64,000 nucleotides of DNA from Bryum argenteum (lineage: Eukaryota; Streptophyta; Bryopsida; Bryales; Bryaceae). The notes under the pieces were generated by a model. That model made no database searches. It saw only the letters and a program-made list of their open reading frames with translations, and was not told the DNA's origin. The DNA lies in assembly GCA_037043015.1 (NCBI GenBank), contig CM073322.1:34369364-34433363 (forward strand). Reading direction: 5' to 3'. Positions 23,085 to 63,387 of this stretch are shown in pieces. The position numbers were made by a program, and so were the translations under genes. The stretch's first letter is position 1, and every line of letters starts with the position of its first letter.

Positions 23085-23108
23085 CTCTACATAAACAGGT
23101 TTGGACTT

Positions 23109-33771: not shown

Positions 33772-33989
33772 ATTCCGCTTTAGTGAACCTTTGAAACATT
33801 ATACCCCTTTTGTCCATACTGTTTTGGACTTGAGCACTTATATATCCCTTTTGTCTATACTGTTCTGAACTACTGTTCTGAACTTAAGTACTGCTTTGGT
33901 TGTAGAGTTGGATTGTTTTGCTCATAATCAGATTGCAACCGAGGCTTCTTATCGGAAGTTTTACAGAGGCTTATCGTATTGTACATACA

Positions 33990-40771: not shown

Positions 40772-41413
40772 CTCCTCCTCTATAACTCGTTCACTGTTGT
40801 CATTTTCTTTCTCCGTCGCAGTGAGATCCTTCAATGGATCTAATCGCTCTTCGTCGCCAGGGCTATCTTTACCATCCTCCTCATCATCTCCACCGCTTAC
40901 ATTTTCATCCCCATCATCTTTTTGAGTCTTACCTGCATCATCCTAGTTTTCAAAAATTATGTCAATTACCACAAAGTACACACTTTACGACTTCCCAACT
41001 TTGAGCTATCAACGAACCTGTCTTCCAGAATCGACCGCAACACCATCATCACCAATGTAATAACTCAGAGACTTGCTCGATATTGAAGTCCGTCTCCCAC
41101 GCTCTAGCTCATCGACTATGCTCTTCCACTCCGACAGTCCGCGAGATTTCTCCGTCTTTGCGATCTCCACAACCGTGTCAAGATTGATAGACCGCATCTT
41201 CACACTTCGCCTAAACTATGGCCCAACCTCTTCATTGTCTCCGTCGATATCCGCAAGACCACGCTCGTCTCCACTTGACCGAGACACTCCCCCCTTACGC
41301 AAAGCGCTCCGCTTCAGCGCTTTTGTATTACTAAACCTTGTCCCACCCCTCCTTTTCTTTCTCTTAGGTATACTCTCATTCGATCTCTCAGATCCCTGAC
41401 TCACAACATCCAT
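40772..41413 (-). pseudogene. Gene Z (MULE-A copy): small charged protein divergent from the transposase
   Basis: Exon 1 (41018-41413) starts MDVVSQGSERSNES, then a basic block PKRKKRRGGTRFSNTKALKR, then the conserved KMRSINLDTV. Exon 2 (40772-40942) is very acidic (DDEEDGKDSPGDEE). The exon 1 donor is CAG|GTTCG and the exon 2 acceptor CTAG|GATG; the join keeps the frame. A TAG at 41216 breaks the frame where MULE-B reads Arg. Exon 2 ends at a donor, so at least one more exon is missing or unrecognised. The basic block is a good nuclear-localisation signal. By position it recalls mudrB of maize MuDR, but there is no sequence link. Confidence 0.55.
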
Positions 41414-42136
41414 GACCTCTAGTCCTTGTAGAATCAGACACAACTGGAATGGACTCAAATCCTGAATCACCAAAACACAATAGACAATGAAAGGGTCGAT
41501 ATCGTCGTTCTCCCTCTATTTACACACTTTCCACTACTTTGTGAGATACCTAGTATCTTTATTAGATCATTAATTATAGCAACTGCAATGACGGCCCACG
41601 GAGCGCCATATATGACAGTATCTGACAGCTGATTTTAATCCGATTTTTAAAAATACATCCAGCTACTCTAACAAAGACGGCCGCCGTCACTTTTCCGAAA
41701 TTAAGGACTGCACAATTTAATGATCCTGTTTAATCGTGCCCACTCACTCACATGATCTAATTTCATGAAACTAACCAACTAGGTAATTAAAATCACTTTA
41801 ATTCACTTCATGGGCTGCCAAATGTGACAGTCCTTGACATGAGATGCTAATCTATTTTTCGAATTTAGATACAAATGCTCTGACAATGACGGCCGCCGTC
41901 GCTTTTCCGAATCTGACACTGTCAACACTTGCGCATTAACGACACTAATTACAATTGCCTAATACTATTCAACATTTACTCTTCAACATTGTAATTGTCA
42001 ATTTTATCCAATCTACTATACTTATTTACTTCAATACAACTTCTGACAACCAATTTCTTCTTATAAACTGCATCATACCTAGTCTGTATCCTTTTTTCAC
42101 TTCCACTGTTGATGCTCGTTGGTTCTCTCGCTCATC
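41414..42136. promoter_or_regulatory. Bidirectional promoter region, gene Z and transposase (MULE-A)
   Basis: Two GACGGCCGCCGTC motifs (41680-41692 and 41890-41902), plus a third TGACGGC near 41591, lie in an otherwise AT-rich spacer. TGACAGT/ACTGTCA sequences recur beside them. The 56733-57243 spacer keeps the last motif. Confidence 0.5.
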
Positions 42137-44658
42137 ATGGCTTCCTCCTCTTCTGAACCCTCTCCTGCAGACATTGTTGAGATTGTATCATAGGGAGCAC
42201 TTCTTCCCATTTGCATGTCCATAGGGCTTGAAGGTGTCGTAGAGATCACTACATCGTGGCTTGGAATTCGATTCGGCTACGATGCATCTTCCCTTTGGTT
42301 AGAGAGAGAAGTTCTTGAACCTGTTACTAATCATATTCAGTACTCCATGGTCGTAGATCCAATCATCCTAGAGAATAATACTACAATCTGGAAGCTTAGA
42401 GCTGGAAAGTATCGCCTCTATGGCTTGACAGAGTCCGTCATGAACGCCTCAATAGTTCTCCTGACCCCACGAAGTTCCTCTACTATATCCACGGTAGCTC
42501 TAGGTCTTGCTCGTGTCAAGGTCGAACCAGGTCTCGAAGTCACCATTGACATATCGGATTCATCAGAAGACGAGAAGAAGTCTCCTCTGCAACCATGTCG
42601 TCTATCGACTCAAATTCCATTGCAACCTCCTATTAGGGATAACTATCTAAGAGCCACCCCTCCTTTACTTTCATCGCAAATTGTGAAACCCAAAAAAATT
42701 CTTCCATCCCTCTGCAATCTCGCTAGAATGCCCAGTAGCAAGACTCTCCTCAAAAAAATTGATTTCGAAACCATCCGCACTGTCAACGTATCTTTCTTGC
42801 CTTCGTCGTTCAATGGCGATGTACTCTTCATCTTTCCGCCCACTCTTCCGTCTGCAACTCACAAGGTCGCGAAGTCCGTCGAGGGATGGATAAACGGTAT
42901 GACGGTCATGTGTGGACTAGGACGATGACCACCAACATCAGCAATACGCAAGGGTTGTCTTTTCGATACTCGAACTGTGGAGGACATTTACAGTGCCACA
43001 ACCCAAACTGCGACTTCTTCCAACGACCTGATCGGGTCGCTGGAGTGAAGGATGTGGAGTTTGAAGGCATTACCAAAGACCCCTTCCCGGTAGGCGGAAC
43101 GCCCCCCCCCCACCTCTACGTTGGTCTGTAAGCTTTGCAAAGATCTTCCTGTTTGTGTTGCGCCTTGTTCTGCAAAAATCTTCTACGTAGTTGGAGAAGA
43201 TTGTCAGGAGCGTGCATGTGTCTATATAGGAACGCACGAACACCCTGTCAAAGTTGGAGATTATAGATGTGTAAGAAAAAAAATAGATGAGTTACTAGAA
43301 GAGCATGTTGACCGTAACCCTCAAGCCACCGTTTCAAAAATAGTTATGGAAACCAGCAAAGACTTGTTAGGTAACTTACTTCTCCGTGACGAAGGTGACC
43401 CCGAAACCGGCAATCTTTCTCTTCAGCAGCTGGAACCAGTCTTTGAACAATGCAAAGAGTTAAACTCTCCGAGCATGCGCAATCGTATCTACACTTTCAA
43501 GTACTTGCGTAGGTATGGCATTCTCGATGGGATCACAAAGCTCAGAGGTCTCAGCAACTGAGCATATGTGCAACGCAACATGTTCCCTGGCCAAGGCGAC
43601 GAATCGGAGAAAGTCTTCATCTTCAAGATGTCGGAGGTCGGCCACGGTAGTGGTGTTGATCAGGTTTGCCGTATGCAGCCTGGAGGAAATCTCTCCCACG
43701 CATGGATGATGTTTGAGCATGTCAAACGCGTTACGGATTGGACCACTATGGCCTGCCACGTGTACGACTCATGTTACCAACGCATTCTAACCATTGCATG
43801 CTGTGATTTCCAGTCAAAGGACAAAGATGCTCAACTCGTCTTCTGGAAGAACCTTAATCATGTGATGGCCAGAAACGGAGTACCCAAGCCGCAGTTCCAA
43901 GGATTTATGGCTGATAGTGCTCAAGCCAACTGGAACGCAATGCGCATCATCTACGGCTCTGGAAACCCTGCTATCCCCATGGAAGGCCGCGAACGCACAT
44001 GTTATTTCCATTGGACGCAGTCTCTTGAGAAACATACGAAACAATACATTGTGCCCGAATTGCAGCGCCAACACCAGATTCTTTGTAAGTAGTATAAGGA
44101 TGCGCGCACCATGGAAGAGGCTGAGACCCGATATTGGGCTATAAGAGCGTGGTGGGCATCCTCAAAGGCCACCTCCGAAATTGGTATAGAACACTTAGGT
44201 CATTGGCTTGCGTACTGGCACTTCAGATACAGACAATGGAGTGGATTTATGGAACTAGTAAGTATACAATTTCTTTGCGATATCTTCGCTGATTACATGC
44301 TCTATGGTAGCTTCTATAATGTTATGACAGTAGCAAAGAAATTAACAGGTATTGTTTATATATTATTAGTTGATTTTTATGTGGATTTATATACTCTGAA
44401 TCTGTATTAAGTACAAATCTAAATCATGAATAAAGTTCTAATACGTTTGTACATTGCAGGAAAAAAAATATTCGGCAGAAGAACTCGCAGAGATGCCTTC
44501 TTGTAATCTTGCGGAGTCAATCCATAATAAGTGGCTGCAAGCGTCTGGCAATAAGGGTAGGGATCTCTACGTCGCAGCCGTTGACGACTACGTTCGGGCA
44601 TTCCTCCAAGTGGTCAGCTACCATCAATTCAACAAAGGCGGTGCAAGTGGTTCTGGAC
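42137..44658 (+). pseudogene. MULE transposase, MULE-A copy, truncated by P2
   Basis: ATG 42137 and exon 1 to 44257, an intron to 44459, then exon 2 until P2 enters at 44659. The nucleotide sequence is close to 57244-59778. Lesions relative to MULE-B are TAG for Gln at codon 19 (42191), a lost G near 42885, an extra C in the C-run near 43105, and TAG near 44090 where MULE-B has CAG. The TGA at 43559-43561 is shared with MULE-B. The C-terminal third with the SWIM finger should lie beyond the window. Domains are described under 57244-61021. Confidence 0.85.
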
Positions 44659-45034: not shown

Positions 45035-45300
45035 CGACCCGTCCGCCCTTGTCGTCACCTGCCTCCTCGCTCTCTACCCTTTCGTCTTCTTGCGCCTCTG
45101 CTTTCCGTCTTTTCGCTTTCCGTCCCTTAGTTTCCGATCCGCCCCCCTGGCCGATCTCAGCCCTTCCATTCGCTACTTTTTGTCAGTCTTCTTTCCAATG
45201 GCACGTTCAGCTTCCGCTTCCGCTCAGGCTCAGGAGGAGCTCAGGATATCGATCAAGGGGGAATGCACGGGTGTGAGCGGAGAGCGGTGAGCGGTGAGCG

Positions 45301-46402
45301 GTGATTGGCAGAATTTTTTTTTTTCATGAAAGATTAAGACCCTATTACCACTCATTGCAAAAAAAAGTATAAAAGTTAATAGCCCTATTACCATGAAATG
45401 GGTGGTTGTGAATTTTTGAAATGGTCACTTTTAGGCCAAAAAGTACCCAAAACCGTGGATATAGGTTCTTTATCCATTTATTTTCATGGTAGTGAGGTCC
45501 ACCACTATTTCATAAATAAGCCACATTTGCAAGTTCAAATAAAAGTTAATTAAATTATGGGTTGAAGTCATCATGTGTAACCAATTTAATTCAAATCATA
45601 TACAAAATGTAAACCAAAATTTGGGATGGCCCTTTAGGTAATCAGTAAGTTTAATTTATTGATTTTAAGATTTGGAGAATAATTAGGGCTGACGTCATCA
45701 ATTTCCTATTACAACTGTCAGAAATATAGGTAGATGCTTCGGTTCATATAATCTGAAATTTATAACTAGAGGTCGTCTTCTTGTCTCTCCTAATAAGGTG
45801 TAGAGAAAGACATTCACGTGGCATTGTAGTGGTCCGAGTTCGATTCTCCTCGGCCTCGTTTGAGCGTTGCAATCGCGACTTAAAGCAGCTATCCTGAGCT
45901 ATACATATAATAGACTATAGCCCCTTGCAACATTGGCAAGATTCAATCACTCCAATGGAAAATAATAAAAACCTTCTGAAACTTTTAGGCTGCATTGAGT
46001 TTAAAGCTTAAACATTTTCATATATCGAAGCATGGAAATTGGAGTTGAAGAAGTTACAACAAAATTAGGGCTGACGTCACCGTTAAAGGCATGCAGTGAT
46101 CGCAAAGAATGATTAAGGAGTTATTCCAACTACGACTAGTTGATTGCTAGTTAGAGTATTTGTATGGCCACGACTCACACTTGGATTGAGGGTTGGCTTG
46201 AATGTGCTTGAATATTTTGAATACAAATTACCGACTTATAAAAATATAAAACCATATATATTAAAAAACACATATAGATCGTACATAAGTAATAGATCAT
46301 GGAAAACTACGAATGTATGGCGCTACCATGTCCAGTACCTATCGGAAAACAAATCACACACTAAGCAGACGGTGTAGTACCTATCGGAAAACAAATCACA
46401 CA
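45301..46402. other. MULE-B left subterminal region, no gene
   Basis: About 820 bases are shared with MULE-A 13490-14318. They start with GAGCGGT microrepeats. A B-box-like GAGTTCGATTC occurs at about 45836. Bases 46321-46430 contain a 48-base tandem duplication at the 3' end of gene Y. Confidence 0.6.
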
Positions 46403-49400
46403 CTAAGCAGACGGTGTAGTACCATTAAAGTGTTGATCACACTGATCTGCCTCAAAATCTATAAACTTAAGCACACTCTTGCTATAACGTCGACGTGGAG
46501 TGTCAGACAAAATGGGAGATGGAGCTTGAACAAACTCTTGAGCAAGACGCTCCGCGTACGATGGTAGGGTGAATTTTGATGGAGGGCTCTTGTAAAGATG
46601 AGCGTTGCGAGACAATCGCTCTTTCAGACCTGCGATCCTAAAATTGCAAAGAAAGTCAATGTCACCGATATGGAAGTGTGTTTTCTTAAATCGATAAAAA
46701 GAATACAATATGAAATTACGCACCAATGAATTTTCGTGGCTTCTTCACGACTGGTTCGTCAGAGTCATAATCTGCGGGAGGGGCCGATTCTCCACTTTCT
46801 TCATCACCGGGAGGACCATTCTTGTAATCCGCTAGTACACCATCGAAAAAATTTCTTCGTCAGGTTCCATGGCGATGAGGTGTCGGTTTGAGCGCGCGCA
46901 CGCAATCACAGATGCACCTAAAAAATCAGAAGCCCACGTTAGACATGAAAAATATACATACGAATTCTACTGTAGAGTCTATGGAAACAATACCTGTACT
47001 TGCGCTCCAGTCAAAGACTATACCCCCGTCGTCCGTGAGACAATCGACGAAACATTGAATGAAGGACGGGTCCTTCTCTCGTGAGCCTCGCCACGGTGTA
47101 CCGTCCGGACGATAACGTAATGTTTCTTTCTCTGCAAAGTTACATAGGTGGTCTTCCTCATCAGGTACGATTGCCACACCCCCATATGCGTGTGCCACTT
47201 GCCGAGTTTGGAACCTTGGAACATACTGTTTACGAACATAGACTTTGATGTGGAAGCAGTGAGTCTGCAAAACACAAGTAGAAATATGTTAACATAGAAG
47301 CATAGACGGAAATAATCATGAATCGTGAAATTGAAAATTGGAATCTGTTACGTACCTCTTTCGGTTTGGGTACGGTAGAGGCCATAGGGAGGGGATTATA
47401 TCCCCACCAGTCTCGAACTAGACGAAAACTATATATTGCAGACTCAGAATCGAGAGTACGCTCGATTCTACGACATTTGGGATGCATCAGTAGAATGGCT
47501 CCAACGTCTGTCAAATGATAGGCAGCAAACACGAAGAGGCTCTCAAAGTAGGTTTTGTCCCGCCGGTTCCAGAATGGAATTTCTGTTGGAGACACCCCCG
47601 GTACAGGCAAGTTCTCGGGAGCATCTGCAAAAATGAGATCAATCCCTGGATGCTTGGGTTCAAACTCCATCGCTGTACACGGGTACCTACGGTCTTTGCC
47701 AATCTGAGGTACAAGTAAATAATTAGAAAGTGGTTAATTGATTCACAAGTACAAAACGTAATAAGAAGTTTATGAAAGACAAAGGTATGAAGTAAAACCT
47801 TCTTGATGTGCTCGACGATATCGAGGATTTGCGAATCCCATATCGAAGTCTTTGATGACTGGTGAACCAAATCTCCAATGTTGCCCTTCTCGAGATACAT
47901 TGGCAGAGTGACTGAAATTTTTGATGATGAGCTGCTACCAATGTGATTTGGTTTCAGAAGAGGACGTTTGGCAAATACTGGCTGGCTGAGGCGACGCGGA
48001 GACTGTTGAGAGTTGTGGTCAACGGTGAATGATTGAGGAGGGGACCCAACATTCGTAAGTCCACCTGTAGAAAGTTGAGTCAATCTTGCACCGCGTCGAA
48101 TTGTATTGTTCGCGGCTCCCGCTGAAGCCTGAGTGAGATCAGCATCTTCACGCCTTGTAATGTCTTCTGAGAGGGGAGCATTTTCTTCAGATTCTTGCTC
48201 AAGATCTACAACTGGCTCTGCAACATTGTTGCGTCGCTTCCTGTTTGCACGGGAGTTAGGCACCGAATCGTGAAGAAGGAGAAGAAGATTGGATCGGTGC
48301 ATCTCGGTAAAATAGATATGTTGTCATCGTCATCATCGTCAAATTTCCATCGGTCTTGGTCGTCAGGGTTAGAAGTGGGGTTCGAAGAAGATGCTTCTCC
48401 TCCTTGTGCACGTAGTTGTCGTCGCACTCCGAAAAACCATCCACCGTCGTCAATCGGGAGTTTGTAAACCGCTCTTGTTGGGCGGTGGAGAAGAAAGTTG
48501 CGAGGATCATTCGTTACTGAAATGTCCTCGAACTCCATTGGAATGGAGAACGAAGCTAATGCTCCCTTCGCAACGAGCTCTTGTTTTAAGTACCTACAAA
48601 AATATGAACAATTATGGTGAAGAACAAACAAGTTGTACCAATTTTATAAATATTGTACTTGTACCAATTGGAAACATACCGGAATATAAGCCGCTTAATT
48701 GTGGCTTTGCCTCCGGTAATCTTTTGAAGATCTGAGCCCTTGATGAACTTTGGGCTTGCATTAGGACCAAGGTAGTTGTTGAATGCCTTGTCCCATAACA
48801 GGACCCTCCACTTCTCGACATACGCCGAGGGCTTCAAGACAACACTAGACCACTCGATGTTGAGGTTCTCGTTTGCAACGAGATACTGCATTTCATTTTC
48901 AAGTGATTGCTCTAGCTGAAAATAAAAGAAATATGTTAGAATTTAAACTAACTGATAAACTCAAATTTTGTAATCATGGAACGAAAATGAGAATTACCTG
49001 TGCCCAGAATGAAGCCCGGTGTAGGAATCCGACCAAAGCTTTATCTTTCATTGGGCGATCTTCAGGGAATCGAAATAATCCTCGCACTTCGTTAGGTGAG
49101 TTCCACCATTGAAGCCACTTTGCCTTGAAATCAAGTGAACATTCGTAGTGGCTACCATGTGTAAGCGATCGATTGTCATATCGGGTTTCAAATTTTGGCT
49201 GTAATGAGAATAAATCTGCACATGAGATTCACGTTTTTAATAAGAGAAATAGAGCTAAAAGATAGAAACAATGACATGAAACTGACGAACTCAGCCACAA
49301 TTACCTCTTTCGCAAAAACTTTCCCAAGTTTGTTGTTCGCCACAGCGACCATTTTGTCGAAATTCTTCCCACAAATTGACTTGATTTCAGCCTTGATGGC

Positions 49401-50688
49401 GTTATCCATAGCACTCCATACGCCCGGTCCTGTTTGCTTGTCTTTCGGAACCGTGGCGTAGTACGCAGCCTCAGCGTCGTCCGATGCTTTCGCTAACCTC
49501 CTCTATATACCAATCAGAACACAAGTCAGAAGTTGTTTCAAATAAATTTGGTCAAGAAGAGTCAAGCACATATGTAGTCAACGTACCGCGTATAGAAATT
49601 TTACAAAAACATCTATAGTGACAGGATACCAAGTCTCCTTTTTTGCTTTCGCGTTCTTACAAATCCTGTAATCTTCTGGAGAAATGAGGTCCTTGAAATC
49701 TTCGAGTTTCAATTTACCAAACTTCCTCATGCGTTGGAGTTTGGCACACAAACTGTCTTCGACATGATCATGCTCGGTGGACCTACAGATGAAACCGAGC
49801 GATGAGAAAAATTCCACATGATAAAATTATAATTTAAAATGAAAGTATGAAATGCGACATGTACTTACCAGTTAATGTCGTTCATAGCATCGAGGAGGAC
49901 ATTACTTTCTCCACGGGCATCGAGTACGATGCAGTCAACCGAAATGTACCACGAGGGATCATTCTTGTGGTACCTCTCGATATGACGCATCCACGCCGTA
50001 ACACGGTGGTTGCCCTCGTAAACATAAAAGTATTTATCGCTCAGGTCATGAAGATCTGGATCCGACCGCAGCGAACTCTCAAACTCCTCATTTGCCGCTT
50101 TCCAAAGCGGGTTCGTCCACAATACATCTTGAGTGTCAACAATTTTTTCTCGGCCTTTCCGATCAAAAGGCGAGACGTACATCACCCGATCCCCTTCGCG
50201 ATAACCTTTGTTGAACTCATTCTCGAGTTTTCTAACGTCTTGTTCAGAGATCGGGCGAACCTTCGGATAACAAACGAGACGGCAAAGTGGAATTAGCATA
50301 CGAGACTTCTTAACAGGTTTGAAGCGTAACCTGTTTATAATTGCAATCGAATCGCTCTTGTGGAGCATTCGCATCTCGTTCGCACTCCAATCAGGGTCCT
50401 TGTTCTGAAGATGTTGAGGCATGTGGATGATTCCTACGTTGACACCTCCCGGCAATCTAGTTTCTTCATCATCTGAGAGGGATTGGTCGATGTCATGATC
50501 TGAGGACGGTAATTGAATCTCTGCAGCTTCGAGAGGATTGTCTTTTGAAACTGCACTGGCTTCGCCTTCCAGAGGTTGGAAATCAGTTTCGGTAGGAATC
50601 TCTTGCGGGGCTCCAGATTTAGAAGGACTTGGAAGAAGCACGTTGACTTCTTCATCTTCAATGAGATGAGCTTGAGCTGTAGTCATCT
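46403..50688 (-). CDS. Gene Y (MULE-B): ParB/sulfiredoxin-type domain fused to a permuted N4/N6 amino-methyltransferase, ten exons
   Basis: Exons: 49869-50688, 49587-49782, 49305-49502, 48998-49215, 48680-48915, 47799-48593, 47356-47703, 46994-47264, 46720-46917, 46403-46637. All have GT..AG introns of 76-95 bases, joins keep frame, and total length is about 1,170 residues. An acidic start is followed by a ParB-like domain (about 150-270) with VRPISEQDVRKLENEF and YEGNHRVTAW. A helical middle of unknown fold follows, then a disordered Ser/Asp part. The methyltransferase starts at NIGDLVHQSSKT; motif IV is DLIFADAPEN (about 845), followed by LTDVGAILLMHP and FRLVRDWWGYN. Motif I comes last (IVFDWSASTGASVIACARSN, about 1025), with acidic IAMEPDEE. 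The IV-before-I order is the beta class. DAPE replaces DPPY/W. One-base frameshifts occur near 49135, 48300 and 46860. Confidence 0.8.
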
Positions 50689-50835
50689 GGCAACGCACAA
50701 AACCAATTACATCACAACAGAAAATAAATAAGATGGTGTAGAATAAATCAGAATATATAAAAAGTAATAAATGTTCATTTCTTAAATAAGTATATGATAA
50801 ACATATCATATAATGTCATAATACAATCAGGGAGA

Positions 50836-53800
50836 CTACAACTTTGCGGCTAGTCGCGGAGAACGTCTGGGTGCAAGTCTAGCTAATTCTTTCTTTTGAA
50901 TACGTAAAGCTTTGACTTCATTAGTTTCAATTTGCATGTTAGTTAGCGATCCGATCAACATCAACACGAGAAGTGTGACGGACAGGCGAGGCAGGAGGTG
51001 GAGTTTGAGGAACTGAAGACAATGCTATGACTAATCGACGGGACTCCACATAAGCCAACACGTTGTCCCTCAAAGTGGATAAATCGCTCTCCGCATCCGA
51101 TTCTTCGTCTTCTACAACTCTTGTTTGTTTCACTCGATCCTGCCATACAATCGAAAAATTTAAGTAAGTAAAATCTTGTAAAACATATAATAAAAAGAAT
51201 GCAAAACATAGCATACAGAACTCGAGAGAGCCACAATCCCATGAAAGACAAAATTGCGTTTCTAAGGAGTCCAAAGACCATAAAATAAAGCAAACTTGTT
51301 CATCGATGCCCTTGTAGCATAGAGGAATTGTCTCAGGTTGGCCACGAAGGAACACACAAGCCCTCATCGGCAACCAAGGTAAGGGACTGCTGTTGCAAGC
51401 CAGTTTAACCGGAGTCACTCAAGCACCCTGCAACTGCTAATACAACACACATTCATAAAAGCCCGGGGAAGAATCGAATGTAAAAATAAAAAAAATAACC
51501 AAAGGGATCGGTTTCCTCCCGGACTTGCGTCGGCCGACGCAAGTCCGGGAGGTTTCGACAATCCAACCAGGCAGGCACGCTCCCCACCAATCGCTATCCA
51601 TGGTGAAGGATCTCGCATTGTCCAAACAAATAAGCATCCCGATTATGCCCGAAGCGGAAGATATGCCTCGGGCCCGCCACCAAAAAGACAGAGCCGTCAT
51701 CGGCAAACATGCTTTTTGGGCGTGTCTGCGAGCCAGGAGAGGCCGGTCATGAACGCAAGCATCCTGCAATCCTTAATCCGACACACTGGCAGAGCAGCTC
51801 GTGGCAGATTCAAACAAATAAAAAACCAAACAAAAATGCAAACTGGTCGATCTCCTCCCAGACTTGCGTCGACGCAAGTCTGGGGAGGATTCCAGCAATT
51901 CCAACAAACATTCTAAGGTCACCGGCACCAATGTCATGAGACTGGTGACTTGGCAATCCAACAAACACGCAAGCAAGTTGTAATCCAACACATTCAACGC
52001 AGCCCAAGGAAGATTCAGACGTGTAAATATCAAAAAATCCCGAAGTGATCGTTCCCCTCCCAGACTTGCGTCGACGCAAGTCTGGGGAGGTTTCCAGCAA
52101 TCCAACCAAACATGGGCACGCTCCCCACCAATCGCTATCCGCGGTAAAGGATCTCGCCTTGTCAAAACGACTTAGCATCCCCATTATGCCCCGGCCAAGA
52201 TATACCTCGGCCCGCCATCAAGGGGCGAGCCGTCATCGGCGAACATTCTCGATTGACAAGTGCTTGCGAGCCAAGAGAGGCTGGTCATGAACGCAAGCAT
52301 CCTGCAATTCAAATCCGACACACGGCGGAAGCGGCTCGAGGAAGATTCAAACGAATAAAAAACCCAATAAAATTCAAAACGGTCGATCTCCTCCCAGACT
52401 TGCTTCGACGCAAGTCTGGGGAGGATTCCAGCAATTCCAACAAACATTCTAAGGTCACCGGCACCAATGTCATGAGACTGGTGACTTGGCAATCCAACAA
52501 ACACGCAAGCAAGTTGTAATCCAACACATTCAACGCAGCCCAAGGAAGATTCAGACGTGTAAATATCAAAAAATCCCGAAGTGATCGTTCCCCTCCCAGA
52601 CTTGCGTCGACGCAAGTCCGGGAGGTTTCGAAGAATCAACCAAACATGGGCACGCTCCCCACCAATCGCTATCCGCGGTAAAGGATCTCGCTTTGTCAAA
52701 ACGACTTAGCATCCCCATTATGCCCCGGCCAGCCATATACCTCGGCCCGCCATCAAGGGGCAGAGCCGTCATCGGCGAACATTCTCGATTGACAAGTCTT
52801 TGCGAGCCAAGAGAGGCCGGTCATGAACGCAAGCATCCTGCACTGCAATCCGACACACCGGCGGAGCGGCTCGAGGAAGATTCAAACGAATAAAAACCCA
52901 ATAAAATTCAAAACGGTCGATCTCCTCCCGGACTTGCGTCGACGCAAGTCCGGGAGGATTCCAACAATCCAACCAGATTGGGCACGCTCCCACCAACTAC
53001 TATCCATGGTGAAGGATCCGCATTGTCAAAACAGGTTTTGCCTCGTGCCCGCCTACGAAGGCCGAGTGCCGTCATCGGCACAATTGGCATGGGTCGTTCT
53101 TTGCAAGCCGGGGAGGACCACGCTCATTGCATGCTCCTCTATCTCGCTTAACCAACACAGGTACCGCTTCCATCGGAAGAAGGAACCGGCGACTACGAGG
53201 GCGGTGATGCCGACGACCGGTAGCGGGCCAAATTTATGAAAAGATCAAGAAATCCCGAAGTGATCGTTCCCCTCCCGGACTTGCGTCGACGCAAGTCCGG
53301 GAGGTTTCAAAGAATCCAACCAGGCATGCAGTCACGCTCCCACCAATCGCTATTCATAGTGAAGGATCTGCACCGTCCAACTAGCTTATCATCGCCGATT
53401 ATGCTCCTAAGCCAAATATGCCTCGTGCCCGCCACCGAAGGGACAGAGCCGTCATCGGCATACATGTTTGGACATGTCTTTGCGAGCCCAGAGAGGCCGG
53501 TCATGAGCGCAAGCATCCTGCAATCCCGATTCCGACACACCGGCGGAAGCGGACGTGAAAGATTCAAACAAATAAAAAACCAAACATTGTTGTGCCTCGT
53601 GCCCGCCCTCTAAGGTCGTTTGCCGTCATCGGCACAACCGGCATGAGTCGGAACCGGCGGCCAGGAGGGACCCTGTTGATTGCATGCTCCTACGATTGCT
53701 AATCCAACCCAGTGGAACCGCTCACATCGGAAGAAGCAACCGAAAGCAGACCACGAGGGCGGTGATGACGACGACCAGTAGCAGGGGCGAGTTATGAACA

Positions 53801-55045
53801 CCCTCTTGCATTTTATCATCCCAATCTCGATCCAAAGAGCCTGGTTTCGCCTCGAGCCCGTCCAAGAAGGATCACGTGATCATCGGCACCAATATCATGA
53901 GACTGGTGACTTGGCAATCCAACAAACACGCAAGCAAATGGCAATTCAACACACGCAACGCAGCCCAAGGAAGATTCAGACGTGTAAATATCAAAAAATC
54001 CCGAAGTGATCGTTCCCCTCCCAGACTTGCGTCGACGCAAGTCTGGGGAGGTTTCCAGCAATCCAAACAGACAGGGTCACGCTCTCCACCAACTGCTATT
54101 CATGGTGAAGGATCTGCATTGTCCAACCAGGTTAGCATCCCCGATTCTCCCAGGGTAGGTTCTGTCCGAATCCAGCATATGCCTCAGGCCCGCCACCGAA
54201 TGGACTGAGCCGTCATCGGCGAACATGCTGTTCGGACATGTGCTGCAAGCCAGGAGAGGCCCGTTAGGAACGCAAGCATCCTGCAATCCTTAACCCGACA
54301 CACTGGCAGAGCAGCTCGTGGCAGATTCAAACGAATGAAAAACCAACAAAAATGCAAAATGGTCGATCTCCTCCCAGACTTGCGTCGACGCAAGTCTAGG
54401 GAGGATTCCAGCAATTCCAACAAACAATCTAAGGGACATCGCCGAGCACTACCAGAGGGATCGTGTTTTCCAGGAGCTTAGTATCCCGACCTCGATCCAG
54501 CATGTCATGGTTTTGCCTCAGGCCCGCCTACAAAGGCTGAGTGCCGTCATCGGCACAACTTGCATGAGTCGGTGCTGCGAGGAGGAGGGGCCCTGCTGAT
54601 TGCATTCTCCTGCATTTGGTAACCCAACACAGTGGTACCGTTCCCATCGGAAGAAGCAACCGAAACAGCCAAGAGGGGCCGGTGATAACGAGGACCAGCG
54701 CAAGGCCAAAATTTTGAAAAAAACAACAATCTTCGGAGAAGAGCGATGCACACAATGAACACACTCTTACTTTTTACAGAGATGTAGGAGAAGCTTTGGC
54801 ATCCACAAATTGCAAATTGAGAAAGTGATGTTAAACGTGATTCTAACCTTGAAGCCCCTTGCAAACCACGCCTCATTTTCTTCACGAGTCTTCATCATCA
54901 TCTCTGGAGCGTACTGGAGAGCGTATTCCCTGTAAAACCCAGAAAAGAGGCTTGACTGTGAATCTGCACTCACATTCTCTGGATTCATCCCCGCGTTCTC
55001 TTCCTCTTGGGCAATTGTCACCTCTTCCTCCACAAGGTTCGCCAT
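50836..55045 (-). pseudogene. Gene X (MULE-B): small protein with acidic start and basic tail
   Basis: Exon 1 (54848-55045) reads MANLVEEEVTIAQEEENAG, then FSGFYREYALQYAPEMMMK, ending AAG|GTTAG. Exon 2 is probably 51296-51427 (acceptor GCAG|GGTGC, ending GIDEQ) and has a TGA four bases after its start region. Exon 3 (50836-51139) starts DRVKQTRVVEDEESDAE and contains SSVPQTPPPASPVRHTSRVDVDRI. After a one-base shift it ends LARLAPRRSPRLAAKL. Intron 1 is 3.4 kb and holds the palindrome array. The gene lies 148 bases upstream of gene Y on the same strand. The SP-rich and RRSPR parts suggest a chromatin or DNA contact role, but I do not recognise a family. Confidence 0.5.
51515..54404. repeat. 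Array of nine 34-38 bp palindromes in gene X intron 1
   Basis: The palindromes share the core ACTTGCGTCGACGCAAGT with CCTCCC..GGGAGG arms and start at 51515, 51854, 52056, 52390, 52592, 52924, 53271, 54017 and 54370. Spacing alternates near 335 and 202 over the first six, so the basic unit is about 536 bases with two palindromes. Most arms are perfect, and arm changes (CCGGACT/AGTCCGG versus CCAGACT/AGTCTGG) often occur on both sides together. Between them recur GTCATCGGC..ACAT and GAACGCAAGCATCCTGCA blocks. Confidence 0.9.
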
Positions 55046-56095
55046 GATCTGGTTCGCTTCAACAACTGCAGCTCCTTTGCTCAAACGAAACTGAAAATTG
55101 GAAAAGCATACACTCTTCAGAAAACAAGCTAAGTCCTACAACACCATCGAAATACAGACGTCCAGGTTCATCTCGTTGCTATAATTGGGTCTACCCTCTG
55201 ACACGATTCTATTCTGGAGGATCTCCAAGCTTATCACTTGGCGAAAAGCCGATCATTTTGGCTAGGGTTTTGATGGCTGATAAAAGCCGCGCTATTCCGA
55301 GGCCGCGCCGTCGTTGCATTCAGAAGTTTTCGGAGGAGTTGGTCTGGCATCGCCGATTCAATCGGCGCCTCGCACCTCAGGCTCCCTTCCGAAATACAGG
55401 ACAGCGCCGCTGAAGGACGGGCCACTCCCGACCGAGCTACGAACCGGACTGTAGGCAAGGAGGATCTTGCAGAACCGGACTGTAGGCAAAAAGGATCTTT
55501 TAGGAGCTTGACCGGGCTTGTCCGGGTATCAATACGGTGCTGGACCCTCTGGGAACCGGGCGTTCAAACAGGACCGGTCTGAACGGACTTTAGACGGGTA
55601 TCAATACCTAGGTGAGAACCGGTGGGAACTGGGGGGCCAGAGACGACCGCAACGAACGGACTTCTACCGATCTGGTCCGGGGCTGCACCCGGGTTTCATT
55701 TACGTTGGAAGGCGACGAACTGAACCCCGGCGGGGGACGTGTAGGGCGGGCATAGAATTTTACCTCGTAAGATAAAAGGGTATGAAATGGACTCGACTAG
55801 GTCTATCGCATAATAGACACGTACTTTATATAGTTCATGAGATTTTTCATGCACATAGTATAGTATTTTTGATCACCGTACTTAGTGACTGCAGTTGCAA
55901 TGTATGTGATTCAAATGTATAATATCAAATCAAACATATAAACGGTAATTGTTCATACTTTTCCTCCCTCAGCAATAACATATCGATCTACATTTGCGTC
56001 ACGTGTATTCATAGTCGCATTTCTAATCTATGCAGGTGAATGCTAAAATATGCCCCGAGAATCCTGCATGACACTAAAAAAAAACAGTCATTTAC
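55046..56095. other. Region between gene X and gene Z (MULE-B)
   Basis: There is no convincing gene. GAACCGGACTGTAGGCAA occurs twice (about 55440 and 55474) and GGGTATCAATAC twice (55524 and 55597). It should contain the gene X promoter. The matching position in MULE-A is filled by the 10-kb extra block. Confidence 0.5.
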
Positions 56096-56732
56096 CTCCT
56101 TCTCTACAATGTGATTCTTGACATCATCATCTTCTTCAAAATCTTTCGTCTCCATGATAGATTCGATCATTCCACGTTCTCCGAAAAACTCGTTGAGATC
56201 CTTCTTCTTCTCCCCGAAACGATCGATCGACTACTTCATAGTCCTTGAGACCTTCTTCAAGACGCCCTATATTCAAACATAAAAATCATTAAACTCAAAG
56301 TCTAACTGATTACTCTCAATAATATTCAGAATATACATCACTGCTTCTCGAGATTCTCAGCCCTCATCACCTCTTATGTAATAACATAATGATTATTTGG
56401 ACGTTGATCACTTCTACCGCGCTCTTGCTCCTCTATAAATCCACGAATTCGTTCCCATCTTCAACATGTCTTTCTCGTTAGTCTCGATCACCGTGTCAAG
56501 ATTGATCGACCGCATTTTCAGATTCCGCCTATCTCGGGGCCCGACTTCATCATCGTTCAAGTCATAATCAGCGGGGACCCTCGTCATCTCCACTCGACCT
56601 TGACGCACCCACCTTTCGCAATGCACTTCGTTTGCGCGCCTTCGTATTACTAAAACGAGTACCCCCTCTCTTCTTCTTCTTCTTAGGCACACTCTCATTG
56701 GATCTGTCCGACCCCAAGCTCACCGCGTCCAT
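56096..56732 (-). pseudogene. Gene Z (MULE-B copy): small charged protein
   Basis: ATG 56732 gives MDAVSLGSDRSNESVPKKKK, then RGGTRFSNTKARKRSALRK, as in MULE-A. The frame shifts once before DYDLNDDEVGPRDRRNLK, and KMRSINLDTVIE is kept. A later acidic exon ends at donor GGAG|GTAAA (56096). Both copies lose the frame in different places, so the ancestral gene was intact. The protein is basic then acidic, with a nuclear-localisation-type block. Its conservation next to the transposase promoter in both elements argues for a role in transposition. Confidence 0.5.
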
Positions 56733-57243
56733 AACGTCGTAACTCTAAACAAAAGCACACAAATCGTACCGTCTCAATACCTTACCAACAGCAACTAAGC
56801 GAACAAAAGAAAGGACCATCTCGTCGTCCTACTCCTATTTAAACAAAGTTTACAAGCCGCCCCTAAACCTAATTTGCGCAGTTCATCATAAATTATCGAA
56901 ACAACTATGACGGCTCATGGTTTGCCAAATGTGACAGTCTCTGACATGAGATGCTAATCTATTTTTTGAATTTGCATACAAATGCTCTGACAGTGACGGC
57001 CGCCGTCACTTTTCCAATTTAGAGACTGTCAACACTTGCACATTAATAACGCTAATTACAATTGCCTAATGGTATACAATATTTACTCTTCATTATGGTA
57101 ATTGTCAGAATTATTCACTCTCCTACCTTTATTTACTTTATTACGACTACCTACTACCAAATTCCACTTATAAACTGCATCACACCTAGTTTGTATCCCT
57201 TCCTCACATCCACTGTCGATGCTCGTTGGTCCTCTCACACATC
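56733..57243. promoter_or_regulatory. Bidirectional promoter region, gene Z and transposase (MULE-B)
   Basis: It contains TGACGGCCGCCGTCAC (56995-57010) with ACTGTCA nearby, in the same place as in MULE-A. The transposase side has CACTTATAAACTGCATCA near 57165, a possible TATA element (TTATAAA). Confidence 0.5.
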
Positions 57244-60200
57244 ATGGCTTCCTCCTCCTCTGAACCCACTTCTGCGAACATTGTTGAGATTGTGTCACAG
57301 GGAGCACTTGTTCCCATTTGCATGTCCGTAGGAGTTGAAGGTGTCGTAGACATCACTGCATCGTGGCTTGGAATTCGATTCGGATACGATGCATCTTCAC
57401 TGTGGTTAGAGAGAGAAGTTCTAGAACCCGTTACTAATGATGTTCAGTACTCCATGGTCGTAGATCCAATCATTCTAGAGAATAATACTACAATCTGGAA
57501 GCTCAGAGCTGGAAAGTATCGCCTCTACGGCTTGACGGAGTCTGTCATGAACGCCTCAACAGTTCTCCTGACCCCACGTAGTTCTTCTACTATTTCCACG
57601 GTAGCTCCAGCTCTTGCTCGTGTCAAAGTCGAACCAGGTCTAGAAGTCACCATTGACATATCCGATTCATCAGAAGACGAGAAGAAGGCTCCTCTGCAGC
57701 CATGTCGTCTACCGTCAGAAATTCCATTGCAACCTCCTATTAGGGATAACTATCTAGAAGCCACCACTCCTTCCTTACTTTCATCGCAAATTCTAAAACC
57801 CAAAAAAATTCTTCCATCCCTCTGCAATCTCGCTAGAATGCCCAGTAGCAAGACTCTCCTCAAAAAAATTGATTTCAAAACCATCCGCACTGTCAACGTA
57901 TCTTTCTTGCCTCCGTCCTTCAATGGCGATGTTCTCTTCATCTTTCCGCCCACTATTCCGTCTGCAAATCACAAGGTCGCGAAGTCCATGGAGGGGATGG
58001 ATAAACGGTATGACGGTCATGTGTGGACTAGGACGATGACCACCAACATCAGCAATACGCAAGGCTTGTCTTTCCGATACTCGAACTGTGTAGGACATCT
58101 ACAGTGCCACAACCCGAACTGCAACTTCTTGCAACGACCTGACCGGGTCGCTGGAGTGAACGATGTGGAGTTTGAAGGCATTACCAAAGACCCCTTCCCA
58201 GTAGGCGGATCGCCCCCGCCCACCTCGACGTTGGTCTGTAAGCTTTGCAAACAACCTCCTGTTTGTGTTGCGCCTTGTTCTGCGAAAATCTTTTACGTAC
58301 TTGGAGAAGATTGTCAAGAGCGTGCATGTGTCCATATAGGAACGCACGAACACCCTGTCAAAGTTGGAGATTATAGATGTGTAAGAAAACAAATAGATGA
58401 GTTACTAGAAGAGCATGTTGACCGTAACCCTCAAGCAACCGTTTCCAAAATAGTTATGGAAACGAGCAAAGACCTGTTAGGTAACTTACTTCTCCGTGAC
58501 GAAGGTGACCCCGAAACCGGCAATCTTTCTCTTCAGCAGCTAGAACCAGTCTTTGAACAATGCAAAGAGTTAAACTCTCCCAGCATGCGCAATCGTATCT
58601 ACACTTTCAAGTACTTGCGTAGATATGGCATTCTGGATGGGATCACAAAGCTCAGAGGTCTCAGCAACTGAGCATATGTGCAACGCAACATGTTCCCTGG
58701 CCAAGGCAACGAATCCGAAAAAGTCTTCATTTTCAAAATGTCGGAGGTCGGTCCCGGTAGCGGTGTTGATCTAGTTCGCCGTATGCAGCCTGGAGGAAAT
58801 CTCGCCCACACCTGGATGATGTTTGACCATGTCAAACGCGTTACAGATTGGACCACTATGGCCTGCCACGTGTACGACTCACGTTACCAACGCATTCTAA
58901 CCATTGCATGCTGTGATTTTCAGTCAGAGGACAAAGATGCTCAACTCGTCTTCTGGAAGAACCTTAATCATGTGATGGCCAGGAACGGAGTACCCATGCC
59001 GCAGTTCCAAGGATTTATGGCTGATAGTGCTCAAGCCAACTGGAACGCGGTGCGCATCATCTACGGCTCTGGAAACCCTGCTGTCCCCATGGAAGGCCGC
59101 GAACGCACATGTTATTTCCATTGGACGCAGTCTCTTGAGAAACATACAAAACAATACATTGTGCCCGAATTGCAAGGCCAACACCGGATTCTCTGTAAGC
59201 AGTACAAGGATGCGCGCACCATGGAAGAGGCTGAGACCCGATATTGGGCTATAAGAGCGTGGTGGGCATCCTCGAAGGCCACCTCAGAAGTTGGGTTAGA
59301 ACACTTGGGTCATTGGCTTGCGTACTGGCACTTCAGATACAGACAATGGGGTGGATTTATGGAACTAGTAAGTGTACACTTTCTATGCCAGAGTTTTGCT
59401 GTTTTCATGCCCTACTGTTGCTTTTGTAATGTTCTAAGAGAACCAAAGAAATTAGCAGTTCTTTTTTATATAGTATTAATTAAGTTTTTTGTGGATTTAT
59501 ATACTGTGAATATGAATTAAGTACAATTTTAAGTTATGGATGAAGGCCTAATACGTTTGTAAATTCCAGGAAAAAAAATATTCGGCAGAAGAACTCGCAG
59601 AGATGCCTTCTTGTAATCTTGCGGAGTCAATTCATAACAAGTGGCTGCAAGCGTCTGGCAATAAGGGTAGAGATCTCTATGTCGCAACAGTTGACGATTA
59701 CGTTCGAGCCTTCCTCCAAGTCGTCGGCTACCATCAGTTTAATAAGGGCGGTGCAAGTGGTTCTGGACCATCCGTAGAAGAACTTCGTCAACGTCTCTAT
59801 ACCGCTCAACGTCGTGCTAATCGATCCGGCAATCCATCTTGCCTCAACAAGGCTGTTATGGACTTCCCGAAGCGTAAGCTTCTCAGTCGCGCGCGACGCC
59901 CACTTGGAGGGGGCCGAAATCTTTGGTTCCAGGAAACGTAAGGCTGATGTTCCCATTGGTGCTGAAGAAGAAACTCATCGACCTGACACCGTGAGCTACT
60001 CACGTCCTCGAATAGGGAGAAGAGTCACACGAGCTCTTGTGAGAATCTCAGTCCTATCCACGAAGAAGATGAAGTTCAAGAGCAACCGCTGGAGCCATCC
60101 TCTTCTCCTGGACATAGTATTCAGCGCGTCATTACTATCCAAGAGTCGAGGGTGAATGAGCGTCTATGGCACATTGCTCGTTTGAAGGAATCCTCATCCA

Positions 60201-61021
60201 AGGCTTGTTGGGGTATTATGGCTAAGACCAGGAAGAAATGCGAATCCCGCATTGTTCAAAACGGAAAGGCGACCGCAGCTCCAACTTACACCGGAGTATG
60301 GCAGCGTCCTCAAGAGGGTCCCAAAAAAACCGATCAGTTTTTCTTTTGTCCAGACGACATTGAGCGTTGTGTGAAGGGCAGTCGTCGTAAATGGATTGAG
60401 CCGTTCTCTCGGAAACAAGGTCGACCGCCTATTCCCTCAGTTTGGCCCGTGAAGATTGGGACTAATCTCACACTGGATGAAATTGAGGCGTTGGAGAATG
60501 CGGGTTTTCGGCTCCCACAAAAGGAACGCCTTCCTCTCAACCGCACATTCAATACTTCTCCGCCACCGAGAGACTTGTCACATATTCCTGTGCCGGACAA
60601 GGCTGATCTGTACCCCAAATCACGGAAGTCTAAAGTTCTTCGACGCATCAAGGCTGTGACTTCGAAGCACATGAAGAACATTGACTCAGCTCGTGCCATG
60701 GAGGCAAAAATACTCGAGGTGACCATGATACCTCAACCTGGATTTGGATGTATCGTTGCTTTGGAGTCGGATTCAGAGTCTATCTATAAACTATCTCTAA
60801 GTGAGAACCCTGAGTGTTCTTGCCCGGTGTTCAAAAAAACCATAAGTAAGCTGGGACGAAAAGGCGAACCGTATAGACATTGCAAGCACCTATACTTCGT
60901 GTTGGTATTGGTATGCAAATTTGATATTGATAGAGACCTCTTCATCCATGCGCCCACCCTCAGTTTCAACGAGGTGAAAACCATTCTAGAGCGGGGAATC
61001 CTAGACCAAGTTAGAGAGTAG
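57244..61021 (+). CDS. Mutator-like transposase with WRKY/GCM1-type and SWIM zinc fingers
   Basis: ATG 57244; exon 1 to 59367, intron 59368-59569, exon 2 to 61021, about 1,190 residues. Zinc ligands SNC, LQC, NPNC, CKLC and GTHEH (about 280-370) form a WRKY-GCM1/FLYWCH-like finger. The catalytic region has ACHVYDS (Asp about 543), FMADSAQANW (Asp about 593) and CYFHW (about 622-625, the C..H typical of MULEs); a Glu downstream in the EAETRYWAIRAWW area is the likely third acid. A SWIM finger CSCP..CKH lies near 1122-1147. A single in-frame TGA (58669-58671) occurs at the same codon in MULE-A. Frame changes lie near 59900 and 60000, so this copy needs readthrough and two shifts, or has an unseen intron there. 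It would cut at the GTGTGAGCGG termini. Confidence 0.85.
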
Positions 61022-61459
61022 ACTACCTCAAGGTCACATTACGTAAACCAACATCCACATCTACCCAATATACATGTTATCCCTATAATCGTGTGTTTCA
61101 CACGTTATTTATTTTGATTTCAGCGTTTTACAAAAGTCAATAAATGTATCCCTATTTACAGAAATTTATGAAGTGCTATACAACTTCGACTTCCGATTTC
61201 AAAGTTATGATATACTAGCCTACTGTATAAAATTTGTAAATGTCTCTTAACGTTTGACAAACGTTGTTTAAGTCTACCAAATTTCAGAAATTTTAGCCTT
61301 ATTTCCACGGGTTTAGGAACACAAAACCACGGTTATAAGTCAAGAATATTCGAATATTCCTGAGAATATTCCAGAAAAAATAGTAAAATATTATTTTTAG
61401 AAATTTTTTTGCTAAAAATACCAATTCACCGCTCAAATTTCTGAAACTTGATGGCTCAA
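61022..61459. other. MULE-B right subterminal region, no gene
   Basis: This AT-rich stretch follows the transposase and holds TATTCGAATATTCC-type inverted motifs (61345-61372). It ends at the inverted repeat beginning at 61460. Confidence 0.5.
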
Positions 61460-61489
61460 CGCTCACCGCTCACCGCTCTCCGCTCACAC
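61460..61489 (-). repeat. Right terminal inverted repeat of MULE-B
   Basis: It is the exact reverse complement of 45271-45300 and is built of GAGCGGT/A heptamers. Confidence 0.9.
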
Positions 61490-63387
61490 GGTAGCTACGT
61501 CCATCGATCAAGCTAGTACTCCCGAGCATTCCGGCCGATGAGGAAGAGAAGAAGTTTTTGGCCGAGGACCTCGACAAGATGGGACTCTCCGTCGTGCTGG
61601 ACACACCTTGGGGACTTCGCGACGCGGAGATGTTGCGCGAGATCAAGGTCGGCGCGCCGAACCAGTTCGAGGGGACGGTCACAGGGAAGCCGGCTTCCTG
61701 GACGGCCGATCACTGGAGGGCTGTTTACGGCCTGGTCGTAAATAGCGGAGTAGGGTTGTGCGGCCGGAAACACAAGTGGGCGAAGAAGGCTTTCGACGGG
61801 AACCCACACAAAAATAACGACTACGCGGTGGAGGATTGTAAGGAGCCAAGGGAGCGTGCGCTGATCAAGTTTCTAGCGCCGATCATCCACGCGGACAAGC
61901 CGCATCGGATCACCGTCCGGCTCGCCAACACCGTCCTGGGGTCCGTACGAGGAGAGCGGGAAGTCGACTGGAGCATCATCATTCGAAATCTAGTCGCCCG
62001 GCTCGTGGAAAACGTGGGTAAGACCCGGCCTAGCCCGATGACCCCTTTTCTTTATCACTTGTATAAGAAGGAGGAGGTCCTGACGGAGGAGGAGGTCTTG
62101 ACGGAGGAGGAGGAGTCGAATTATGAGATTGCGCTGTCGTCCCAAAACAACGGCGTATTCGAATCGGAGGAAAGCGCGGACAGCAAGGCCGTATACTCCG
62201 ACGATGAAGAGGACGAGGTCAGATCGGACGACGGGGACGTCCAACCGGACGCGCCACAAGAGCCGGCTCACGAGGCAACACCACCGTAGACGGGACCGGA
62301 GGTAATTATTCTTCCGTCCCTGTCCCCTCCTAGGAACCCGACCGAGGCCGGAACCTAGACCGAGCACGCACAGGCTTCGAAGGCCGCGGATGAGGGAGAA
62401 GTTACGGCCGAGTGGGTGAACCCCATGAATCCGAACGACCCCATACTTCCCCCACCCCTTAATCCGTCCGCCAACCATCCGGATCCTATGAGGCGAGCGT
62501 GGCACCATTTTACGGAAGCCCGGTGTCAGTACTTCTTCTACCAAGAACTTATTGCGCACCTATGCAGACTGTTTGGAGTACAGACATTGTTGGAGGTGAA
62601 ACAGAAGTGGGACTCCAAGCCGACCGAGGAGCAGTTCCGGCAGATAGAGAAGCAAATAACGAAACTTGCACTGGACAACAGGCGTCTTCGGGAGACGGTA
62701 AGAAGAAGGGAGGAAGAACTCTTGATCGGCCGGCAGGCCGTGATGACGGCCAACGAGCAGGTCGTAAAGCTCGTCGAGATCTGCGAGACTCCGGCCGAGG
62801 TACTTCAAAAGGCCAACCTGTACGAGGCCGTAATCTTGCAGTCGGAAGTTTTCAAGGCGGAGACTTTCCGGAAGTTCCTCTTGGCGGCGAAGACGTACGC
62901 CACCAAGGTCAAGAAGAACAATGCCGAAGTCAAGGTATTGATCGACTCCGTACGAGAGCGGATGAAGGAGATGGTAACTCCGGCCTTCACGTCTACTCCT
63001 GCGAAGACTCCGAGGCCGGATCCGGTTAAAGTTGAGAGGACGGATGCTGGACCCTCCAGTCCGACCGACACGAAGGGCAAGTCTAAGGGGAAGACGGAGG
63101 AAGGAGCATCCGTCCCAGCGGATTCTCCGGCCAAGAACAGCCGTAACGCGAGGAGGAAGTTCACGTCCGAGGAATACGAGAAGTCTCCTGGAGCCCAGAA
63201 ACTTCACGACATCGGCCTCGAGCATTCAGAAGAAGAAGAGTTGAAGAGCGGGGACAACACGGACGAGGATTCAAGCGAGGACGAGTATATGATAACAAAT
63301 AAGGGCAAGAGGGTCAAGGCAGGACGGATCGCAGCCTCGCCACTAAAGCGGCCGAAGCACGGAGTTAGTTCGCGGAAGAAGAGGTAG

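Follow-up and report, generated by a model that had tools for sequence, protein, structure and literature searches.

A large moss transposon with a ParB-methyltransferase-like gene and an array of palindromic sites

Introduction

Why should a plant transposon carry a protein that joins a ParB fold to a methyltransferase-like domain? The question is raised by an element at 45258-61502 of a 64,000-nucleotide stretch of the moss Bryum argenteum genome (assembly GCA_037043015.1, contig CM073322.1, positions 34,369,364 to 34,433,363 of the forward strand; C2:34369364-34433363 in our numbering), hereafter the window, whose positions are used throughout unless a contig is named. A first-pass annotation of this DNA had described a complete Mutator-like element (MULE) with a transposase and three further genes, among them a gene, termed gene Y, for a ParB-amino-methyltransferase, and had suggested that the element may methylate or organise its own DNA. 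We report here that the element is a large transposon of the cut-and-paste kind in which two genes are accompanied by palindromic sites, that gene Y belongs to it, and that ParB and palindrome versions tend to travel together. A self-recognition or anti-silencing role for the ParB-fold protein is the explanation that we tentatively prefer.

Results

Ends and insertion site of the element

The element is delimited by asymmetric outer ends, 30-bp subterminal repeats and a 10-bp target duplication (Table 1). The duplication reads ATCGATCAAG exactly on both sides, as had been described, and the host sequence is a repeat whose inverted second copy, in the same window, holds the site unoccupied with a single 10-mer. 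The 30-bp repeats, set 13 bp inside the ends, are likewise as first reported; no such perfect pair arose in 100 shuffles. The outer 13 bases are unlike each other and read GGGGAATGCACGG at the left end and GGACGTAGCTAC[CG] at the right end in 10/10 elements, with the last left base of one copy (L016) as the sole exception; because they are kept across ten elements, we take them to be true, asymmetric termini.

These ten elements are the one at 45258-61502 and nine end pairs picked by eye, at spans of 14-17 kb, among the listed genomic matches of the 30-mer. They measure 14.3-16.9 kb, and eight of the ten are flanked by exact target duplications of 9-10 bp; in L016 the duplication, as read by eye, is 9 bp long and differs at one position, and L018 lacks one. 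In the 258.8 Mb (25 contigs) searched, the 30-mer has 451 matches at up to two mismatches and the reversed control none, and the 23-bp left end has 124 matches at up to one mismatch, 92 of them exact. Termini without matching duplications, which the first-pass annotation had named as evidence against its view, are not the rule among the ten elements read. Among the matches listed, 100 for each end, a properly oriented right end lies within 60 kb of 52 left ends: one pair spans 5.7 kb, 23 span 13.2-17.3 kb, and 28 span 18-59 kb, the last group being partly chance or nested pairs. The second family member in the window, MULE-A, is flanked by a 9-bp duplication in which one position is mismatched and eight bases (CCTCAGCT) are exact.

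Two genes on opposite strands

Coding regions were judged by the conservation of codon phase over the ten aligned copies, an alignment that takes in the element on either side of 51.1-54.3 kb, where the palindrome array lies. Codon phase supports two genes, one per strand: a fused ParB-methyltransferase gene on the minus strand and a transposase gene on the plus strand. No clear coding phase was found in this alignment at 54.3-57.2 kb. Over the aligned parts, the set of four genes that had been assigned to both elements thus contracts to two, and these stand in the same order in MULE-A. The search of Rfam gave no match, and the Pfam scan of single exons gave chance-level matches and nothing more. 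An intron at 50040-50180 in the first model of gene Y was rejected after all copies had been read, as the stretch is coding.

Gene Y belongs to the element

Wherever an organism is named for a relative of gene Y, it is the moss Ceratodon purpureus (three proteins and one further). When the genome was searched with a Ceratodon protein, at least 55 loci with a methyltransferase exon were found among the matches listed (56 of 2916 candidates were scored), and 41 of the 55 were checked for ends. Gene Y adjoins a family-type end in 40 of these 41. The family left end lies 1.6-3.8 kb past gene Y at 15 of the 55 loci and a second-subfamily end is present at nine, to which L029 (read directly) and MULE-A can be added; a further 15 fetched loci included 14 with a related end, as compared with 0/15 for a reversed-string control, while at one locus (L034) there is no family-type end within 4 kb. 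As 24 loci had been reached through the listed ends themselves, an unbiased figure comes from the loci fetched blind, 18/19 (4/4 and 14/15). We conclude that gene Y belongs to the element; it is not a host gene lying mostly outside such termini, and the view that the gene set is a property of the family is supported.

The protein is under purifying selection. The ratio of nonsynonymous to synonymous substitution rates (dN/dS) is 0.05 in the ParB exon and 0.12-0.18 in the methyltransferase exons, and stops occur in the ParB exon of 3/10 copies and in the methyltransferase exons of 5/10. The N-terminal domain has a ParB/sulfiredoxin fold in the predicted structure, and a PHROG family of ParB-like partition proteins matches this part weakly (E=0.0073); none of 37 sequences matched the Pfam ParB family at E<=1, and PDB sequence searches with gene Y returned nothing.

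In the C-terminal part, PHROG families of phage DNA methyltransferases match the relative P0001 around motif I (E=2.5e-5 to 7.4e-4), and the match to N6_N4_Mtase (PF01555) is weak and restricted to the surroundings of motif I (E=0.0024; best score 18.3 bits, below the cut-off of 26.7). In class beta N6_N4 DNA methyltransferases motif IV precedes motif I, and the order in gene Y, with DLIFADAPE before FDWSASTG, fits this class. The designation as an amino-methyltransferase is weakened: it depends on the similarity around motif I, and activity is doubtful given the form of motif IV, as discussed below.

Palindromic sites between the genes

Palindromes lie between the two genes in 10/10 elements, with 1-14 sites in each; they are ~24-38 bp long and spaced some hundreds of bases apart. 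In nine of the ten they are variants of the core CTT[GT]CGTSSACG[AC]AAG, with 3-9 sites per element but one in L012. L014 instead has 14 sites within three substitutions of ACCTTCGGCACCGAAGGT, a type absent from the other nine. These sites lie ~6.1-8.5 kb from the left end of L014, and the sole exact genomic match of ACCTTCGGCACCGAAGGT outside it, at C1:37519263, is 6.2 kb from another family left end. Elements of two other subfamilies also have such palindromes (four plus one imperfect in L049, three in L050). Across the genome CAGMCTTGCGTSSACGCAAGKCTG has 370 sites, against 0 for the control, and its free arm position is paired in 48 and unpaired in two of the 50 matches listed.

The symmetry of the sites is kept by paired changes. 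Pairing of the arms was assessed on 31 distinct sites, gathered by their similarity to the site of element 45258-61502, itself symmetric, and compared with 500 shuffles; the sites share descent, so that pair cells are not independent events. Paired cells make up 86.3%, compared with 75.2 +/- 1.2% in shuffles, and double-sided changes occupy 61 cells, compared with 28.8 +/- 5.0, values reached by 0/500 shuffles in either case. Two inner positions swap as pairs: one from A:T to C:G (19 and 11 sites, one exception), the other from G:C to T:A (22 and 9 sites, no exception). The unbroken centre of the palindromes would be more in keeping with DNA bound by a dimer than with a hairpin in RNA.

A divergent segment within uniform ends

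Between elements, the ends and the transposase mostly diverge by 2-15%, with a few blocks at up to ~20%. Divergence between clades is mostly 20-35% in the ParB half of gene Y, and the intergenic stretch is barely alignable even within clades. The ParB exon has a mean dS of 1.29, compared with 0.19-0.23 for exon 1 of the transposase. This ParB half is an old, divergent segment within far more uniform element ends.

We compared distances among nine elements (L014, with its different motif, was omitted), using one hand-chosen site for each and ParB distances that leave out 50040-50180; 15 comparisons were made with 5000 permutations, and the p values are uncorrected. Palindrome distance correlates with ParB distance (r=0.65, p=0.003) and with methyltransferase distance (r=0.66, p=0.0004); no such relation is seen with the two parts of the transposase (r=0.06 and -0.16) or with the left end (r=0.17). 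The sequence of L018 identifies it as a recombinant: its left part resembles L010, from ~48 kb onwards, ParB included, it resembles the L022 clade, and it shares its kind of palindrome with L012, L022 and L026. The lack of a target duplication in L018 is what recombination between two elements would give. ParB and palindrome versions thus tend to travel together.

Transposase

The order D, D, CxxH, N-x-x-E-S, SWIM motif is typical of MULEs, and the order D, D, CxxH, N-L-A-E-S, SWIM-type can be read by eye in the window and in L022 (in the window FMADS at 59014, CxxH at 59110, NLAES at 59615 and the SWIM-like CSCPVF at 60815). The sequence collections hold 36 relatives of the transposase (best 7992 candidates scored), among which P0004 alone shows the E and SWIM motifs. 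The target duplication (9-10 bp and exact in 8/10, within the MULE range of 8-11 bp) and the terminal inverted repeats (30 bp, 13 bp inside unlike ends) agree with a MULE. Profile searches gave no such support: the L022 transposase has no Pfam match at E<=5, 0/21 relatives match any transposase family, a PDB sequence search returned one chance-level row, and a transposase profile showed no kinship with the MULEs of this genome, represented by a profile built from three sequences only. PF10551 (MULE) has 52 separate matches in the genome, three of which gave that profile and none of which is at element 45258-61502. From the eye-read motif order and the duplication length we call the element MULE-like only, which weakens the original assignment. 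Lanisha, a proposed transposon superfamily linked with Ceratodon, was ruled out by the 9-10-bp duplications; Lanisha is described as having an EnSpm-like transposase and as belonging to a clade with 2-5-bp duplications (PMC12730594).

The word complete applies to the structure of element 45258-61502 and not to its transposase, the frame of which is disrupted by an in-frame TGA at 58669-58671 and by a one-base shift of frame in the last exon with respect to L022, unless the latter is absorbed by an alternative intron at 60074-60117. Under one fixed exon model L022 has 0 internal stops and L024 one, and the other eight copies, that at 45258-61502 included, have several, mostly after frameshifts. 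Some of these stops could be due to assembly error.

Distribution and other features

Contig C1 holds 48 of the 92 exact left ends; it makes up 17% of the genome, which gives an expectation of 15.7 (binomial p=1.6e-14). A Ceratodon ParB relative, KC19_VG030900, sits on a 110-Mb contig. This excess of left ends and the label of KC19_VG030900 led us to consider that C1 may be a U/V sex chromosome. At C1:24927349-24933023 there is a 5.7-kb element with both ends and transposase sequence where sampled; gene Y and the array are seemingly absent, as judged by length (2.5 kb covered by L051), which would make it a helpful deletion variant found in nature. Elsewhere in the window, 8457-12863 is occupied by nested direct and inverted repeats, including 697-nt arms that are 99% complementary and 215 nt apart, and tandem repeats of 41 and 102 bp lie inside MULE-A at 32401-32891. 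The features of the locus are collected in Table 1.

Table 1. Features annotated in the window
Feature	Position	Strand	Remarks
Element	45258..61502		Asymmetric outer ends, 10-bp duplication, 30-bp repeats; structurally complete
Left target duplication, ATCGATCAAG	45248..45257	.	Exact, 10 bp
Right target duplication, ATCGATCAAG	61503..61512	.	Exact, 10 bp
Empty target site, single 10-mer copy	17185..17194	-	Second, inverted copy of the host repeat
Left outer terminus, GGGGAATGCACGG	45258..45270	+	13-mer common to the ten elements read, barring the last base in L016
Right outer terminus, GGACGTAGCTACC	61490..61502	-	Conserved among elements read
30-bp subterminal repeat, left copy	45271..45300	+	Perfect match to right copy
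30-bp subterminal repeat, right copy	61460..61489	-	Perfect match to left copy
Gene Y, fused ParB-methyltransferase-like, multi-exon	46236..50686	-	Codon phase and spliced model; 3' limit and small exons near 48.2-48.4 kb approximate
ParB-fold exon	49868..50686	-	YVYEGNHR at 50026-50003
Methyltransferase-like exons	46874..48064	-	Motif IV DLIFADAPE at 47640-47614; motif I FDWSASTG at 47015-46992
Array of nine palindromes, CCCAGACTTGCGTC/GACGCAAGTCTGGG type	51515..54398	.	Between the two genes
Transposase gene	57244..61024	+	Exons 57244-59367, 59570-59854, 59910-61024
MULE-A, visible part of second family member	13450..44658	+	Gene order as in element 45258-61502; right end at 67445, beyond the window

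Discussion

When these results are considered together, the best explanation for gene Y and its neighbouring sites is, in our judgement, a self-recognition or anti-silencing module, VANC-like in action and built on a ParB-fold protein, to which we assign a probability of roughly 0.4. In this scheme the transposase would move the element; the ParB-fold part, as a dimer, would bind and load on the palindromes upstream of its own gene and thereby bring the methyltransferase-like domain onto the DNA of the element, which would be marked or shielded from host silencing, by analogy with VANC and the VANDAL elements. That the ParB-fold protein binds the palindromes is the simplest account, because strong purifying selection acts on it and the adjacent symmetric sites tend to be of the same version. 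A bolder form of the idea, which we regard as doubtful, is that of a mobile cassette for distinguishing self from non-self, in which diversified ParB-fold proteins paired with matching arrays would be swapped between uniform transposons, with selection keeping the diversity; the methyltransferase fold would have become a chromatin clamp, either without catalysis or with catalysis of another kind, and the whole would amount to ParB-parS in eukaryotic form, put to use against silencing.

Several observations weigh against a self-recognition module. The array is ~1 kb from the ParB exon, and therefore linkage alone could give the correlation, which is the main caveat. The versions do not correspond everywhere: element 45258-61502 and L024 differ by 0.07 in their palindromes and by 0.18 in ParB, and L014 has its own motif, yet its ParB is 0.17-0.22 from the rest, compared with 0.17-0.21 for element 45258-61502. 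Two of the five pair measures are not clearly above shuffles (pairs with a double change, 9 compared with 7.0 +/- 0.8, reached by 13/500; further pair types, 17 compared with 16.9, reached by 308/500), and MULE-A, like L012, has one palindrome. Upstream of one transposase locus (L047) gene Y is present in a more distant version, with 32-61% identity to P0001 exon by exon, and is without the common palindrome; upstream of another (L048) there is no gene Y in 9.9 kb, so that some relatives of the family need not carry it, and the 5.7-kb derivative seems to lack the middle of the element while keeping both ends and sampled transposase. No helix-turn-helix was identified in the gene-Y protein, and the predicted structure of the methyltransferase part is of poor quality (predicted local distance difference test score, pLDDT, of 28). 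Active N6_N4 methyltransferases have [DNS]PP[YFW] at motif IV and the consensus FxGxG at motif I; gene Y has DAPE and not DPPY at motif IV in 14/14 copies matched by the scan and in 3/3 Ceratodon proteins, and motif I, read from translated gene-Y copies, is WSASTG, without the first glycine. The enzyme may consequently be dead.

These motifs bear most directly on the view that gene Y is a working N6-adenine or N4-cytosine enzyme, laying a bacterial-type mark that element or host proteins read. The same reading has been proposed for algal transposons (PMC12477816), and it accords with purifying selection, with the similarity of P0001 to phage DNA methyltransferases in the motif I region and with the weak N6_N4_Mtase match; given DAPE in every copy matched and WSASTG at motif I, we nevertheless consider it unlikely. 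Classical writing of N6-methyladenine or N4-methylcytosine is possible on the sequence, weakened by DAPE, so that of the original suggestion the marking or organisation of the element's own DNA stands as the best idea and methylation as such becomes doubtful. The opposite extreme, a passenger gene in decay, would explain the stops in the ParB exon (3/10) and the methyltransferase exons (5/10) as well as the altered catalytic motifs, but we find it very improbable, as dN/dS is 0.05-0.18 across copies and the altered motifs are kept in Ceratodon also.

The palindromes might instead be a mere promoter or satellite feature upstream of gene Y that correlates with ParB by linkage, and gene Y would act elsewhere. 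Their place in a divergent intergenic stretch ~1 kb upstream of the gene, their satellite-like number and spacing, and the palindrome type shared by element 45258-61502 and L024 across ParB clades fit such linkage; the paired change of two inner positions, with one and no exceptions in 31 distinct sites, does not, nor does the retention of the core in subfamilies 2 and 3, the former of which no longer aligns over the first kilobase of the left end, and on this balance the proposal appears rather unlikely. A role in transposition or replication, in which a ParB-fold clamp pairs or pre-assembles the unlike ends or helps to move very large DNA, is suggested by the asymmetric outer ends kept in the family, by the size of the element and by the loading and sliding of bacterial ParB proteins along DNA (PMC12704722). 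An array in mid-element, away from the ends, is hard to reconcile with it, a methyltransferase-like domain would be unexpected, and the 5.7-kb derivative has both ends and seems to be without the middle; we therefore hold this role to be quite improbable.

Comparison with known systems

The pairing of ParB and methyltransferase on a transposon is already known. The first-pass annotation knew of no MULE described with such a module; for transposons at large, ParB-methyltransferases have been published from a Sola transposon of a brown alga and from transposons of green and red algae (PMC12477816). Sola1-1_Ec32 of Ectocarpus (21.5 kb) is likewise a giant DNA transposon in which ParB-like and N4C/N6A-type methyltransferase domains form one protein on the strand opposite the transposase, an arrangement of the algal class that the moss element shares; it has a Sola1 transposase as opposed to a MULE-like one, the two systems being compared by description only (PMC12477816). 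The passage on the algal elements makes no mention of a binding-site array, cassette exchange or an altered motif IV (PMC12477816). There, ParB-methyltransferases are said to possibly act on the transposon that carries them. In the moss element the palindromes beside the gene offer a likely target, and the presence of several natural versions of protein and sites in one genome makes the question directly testable.

Canonical ParB-parS systems also combine a ParB fold with clusters of palindromic sites. In the moss element no ParA was seen and no helix-turn-helix was identified, and the sites are in a eukaryotic transposon. Fusions of a ParB fold to an N6_N4 methyltransferase show the same domain pairing, are commoner in phages and are enriched in prophage regions, according to a 2025 survey; they are prokaryotic, unlike gene Y, and the text of the survey contains no words beginning with 'transpos', 'moss' or 'plant' (PMC12704722). 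Fungal DNA transposons with TET/JBP dioxygenases resemble the moss element in having captured a base-modification gene and differ in enzyme, hosts and transposases (PMC12730594). In the open literature we found no ParB-methyltransferase transposon of a moss or other land plant, no site array and no cassette exchange, a weak absence as most subscription papers lie outside such a search. If our reading is true, ParB-methyltransferase transposons probably extend to land plants.

To our knowledge VANC, the counterpart in action that we propose, is neither a ParB nor a methyltransferase protein. It recognises variable tandem motifs in the non-coding DNA of VANDAL elements, which are MULEs of Arabidopsis, and undoes their silencing (PMC5735166). 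As in the moss element, the protein is encoded by the element and matches variable motif arrays, protein and targets evolving together; the VANC21 motif YAGTATTAY, unlike the moss sites, is not palindromic, and binding has been shown for VANC whereas it is inferred for the moss protein (PMC5735166). If the self-recognition reading is true, the moss element would join VANC as the second example of a transposon that has evolved self-protection of a sequence-specific kind.

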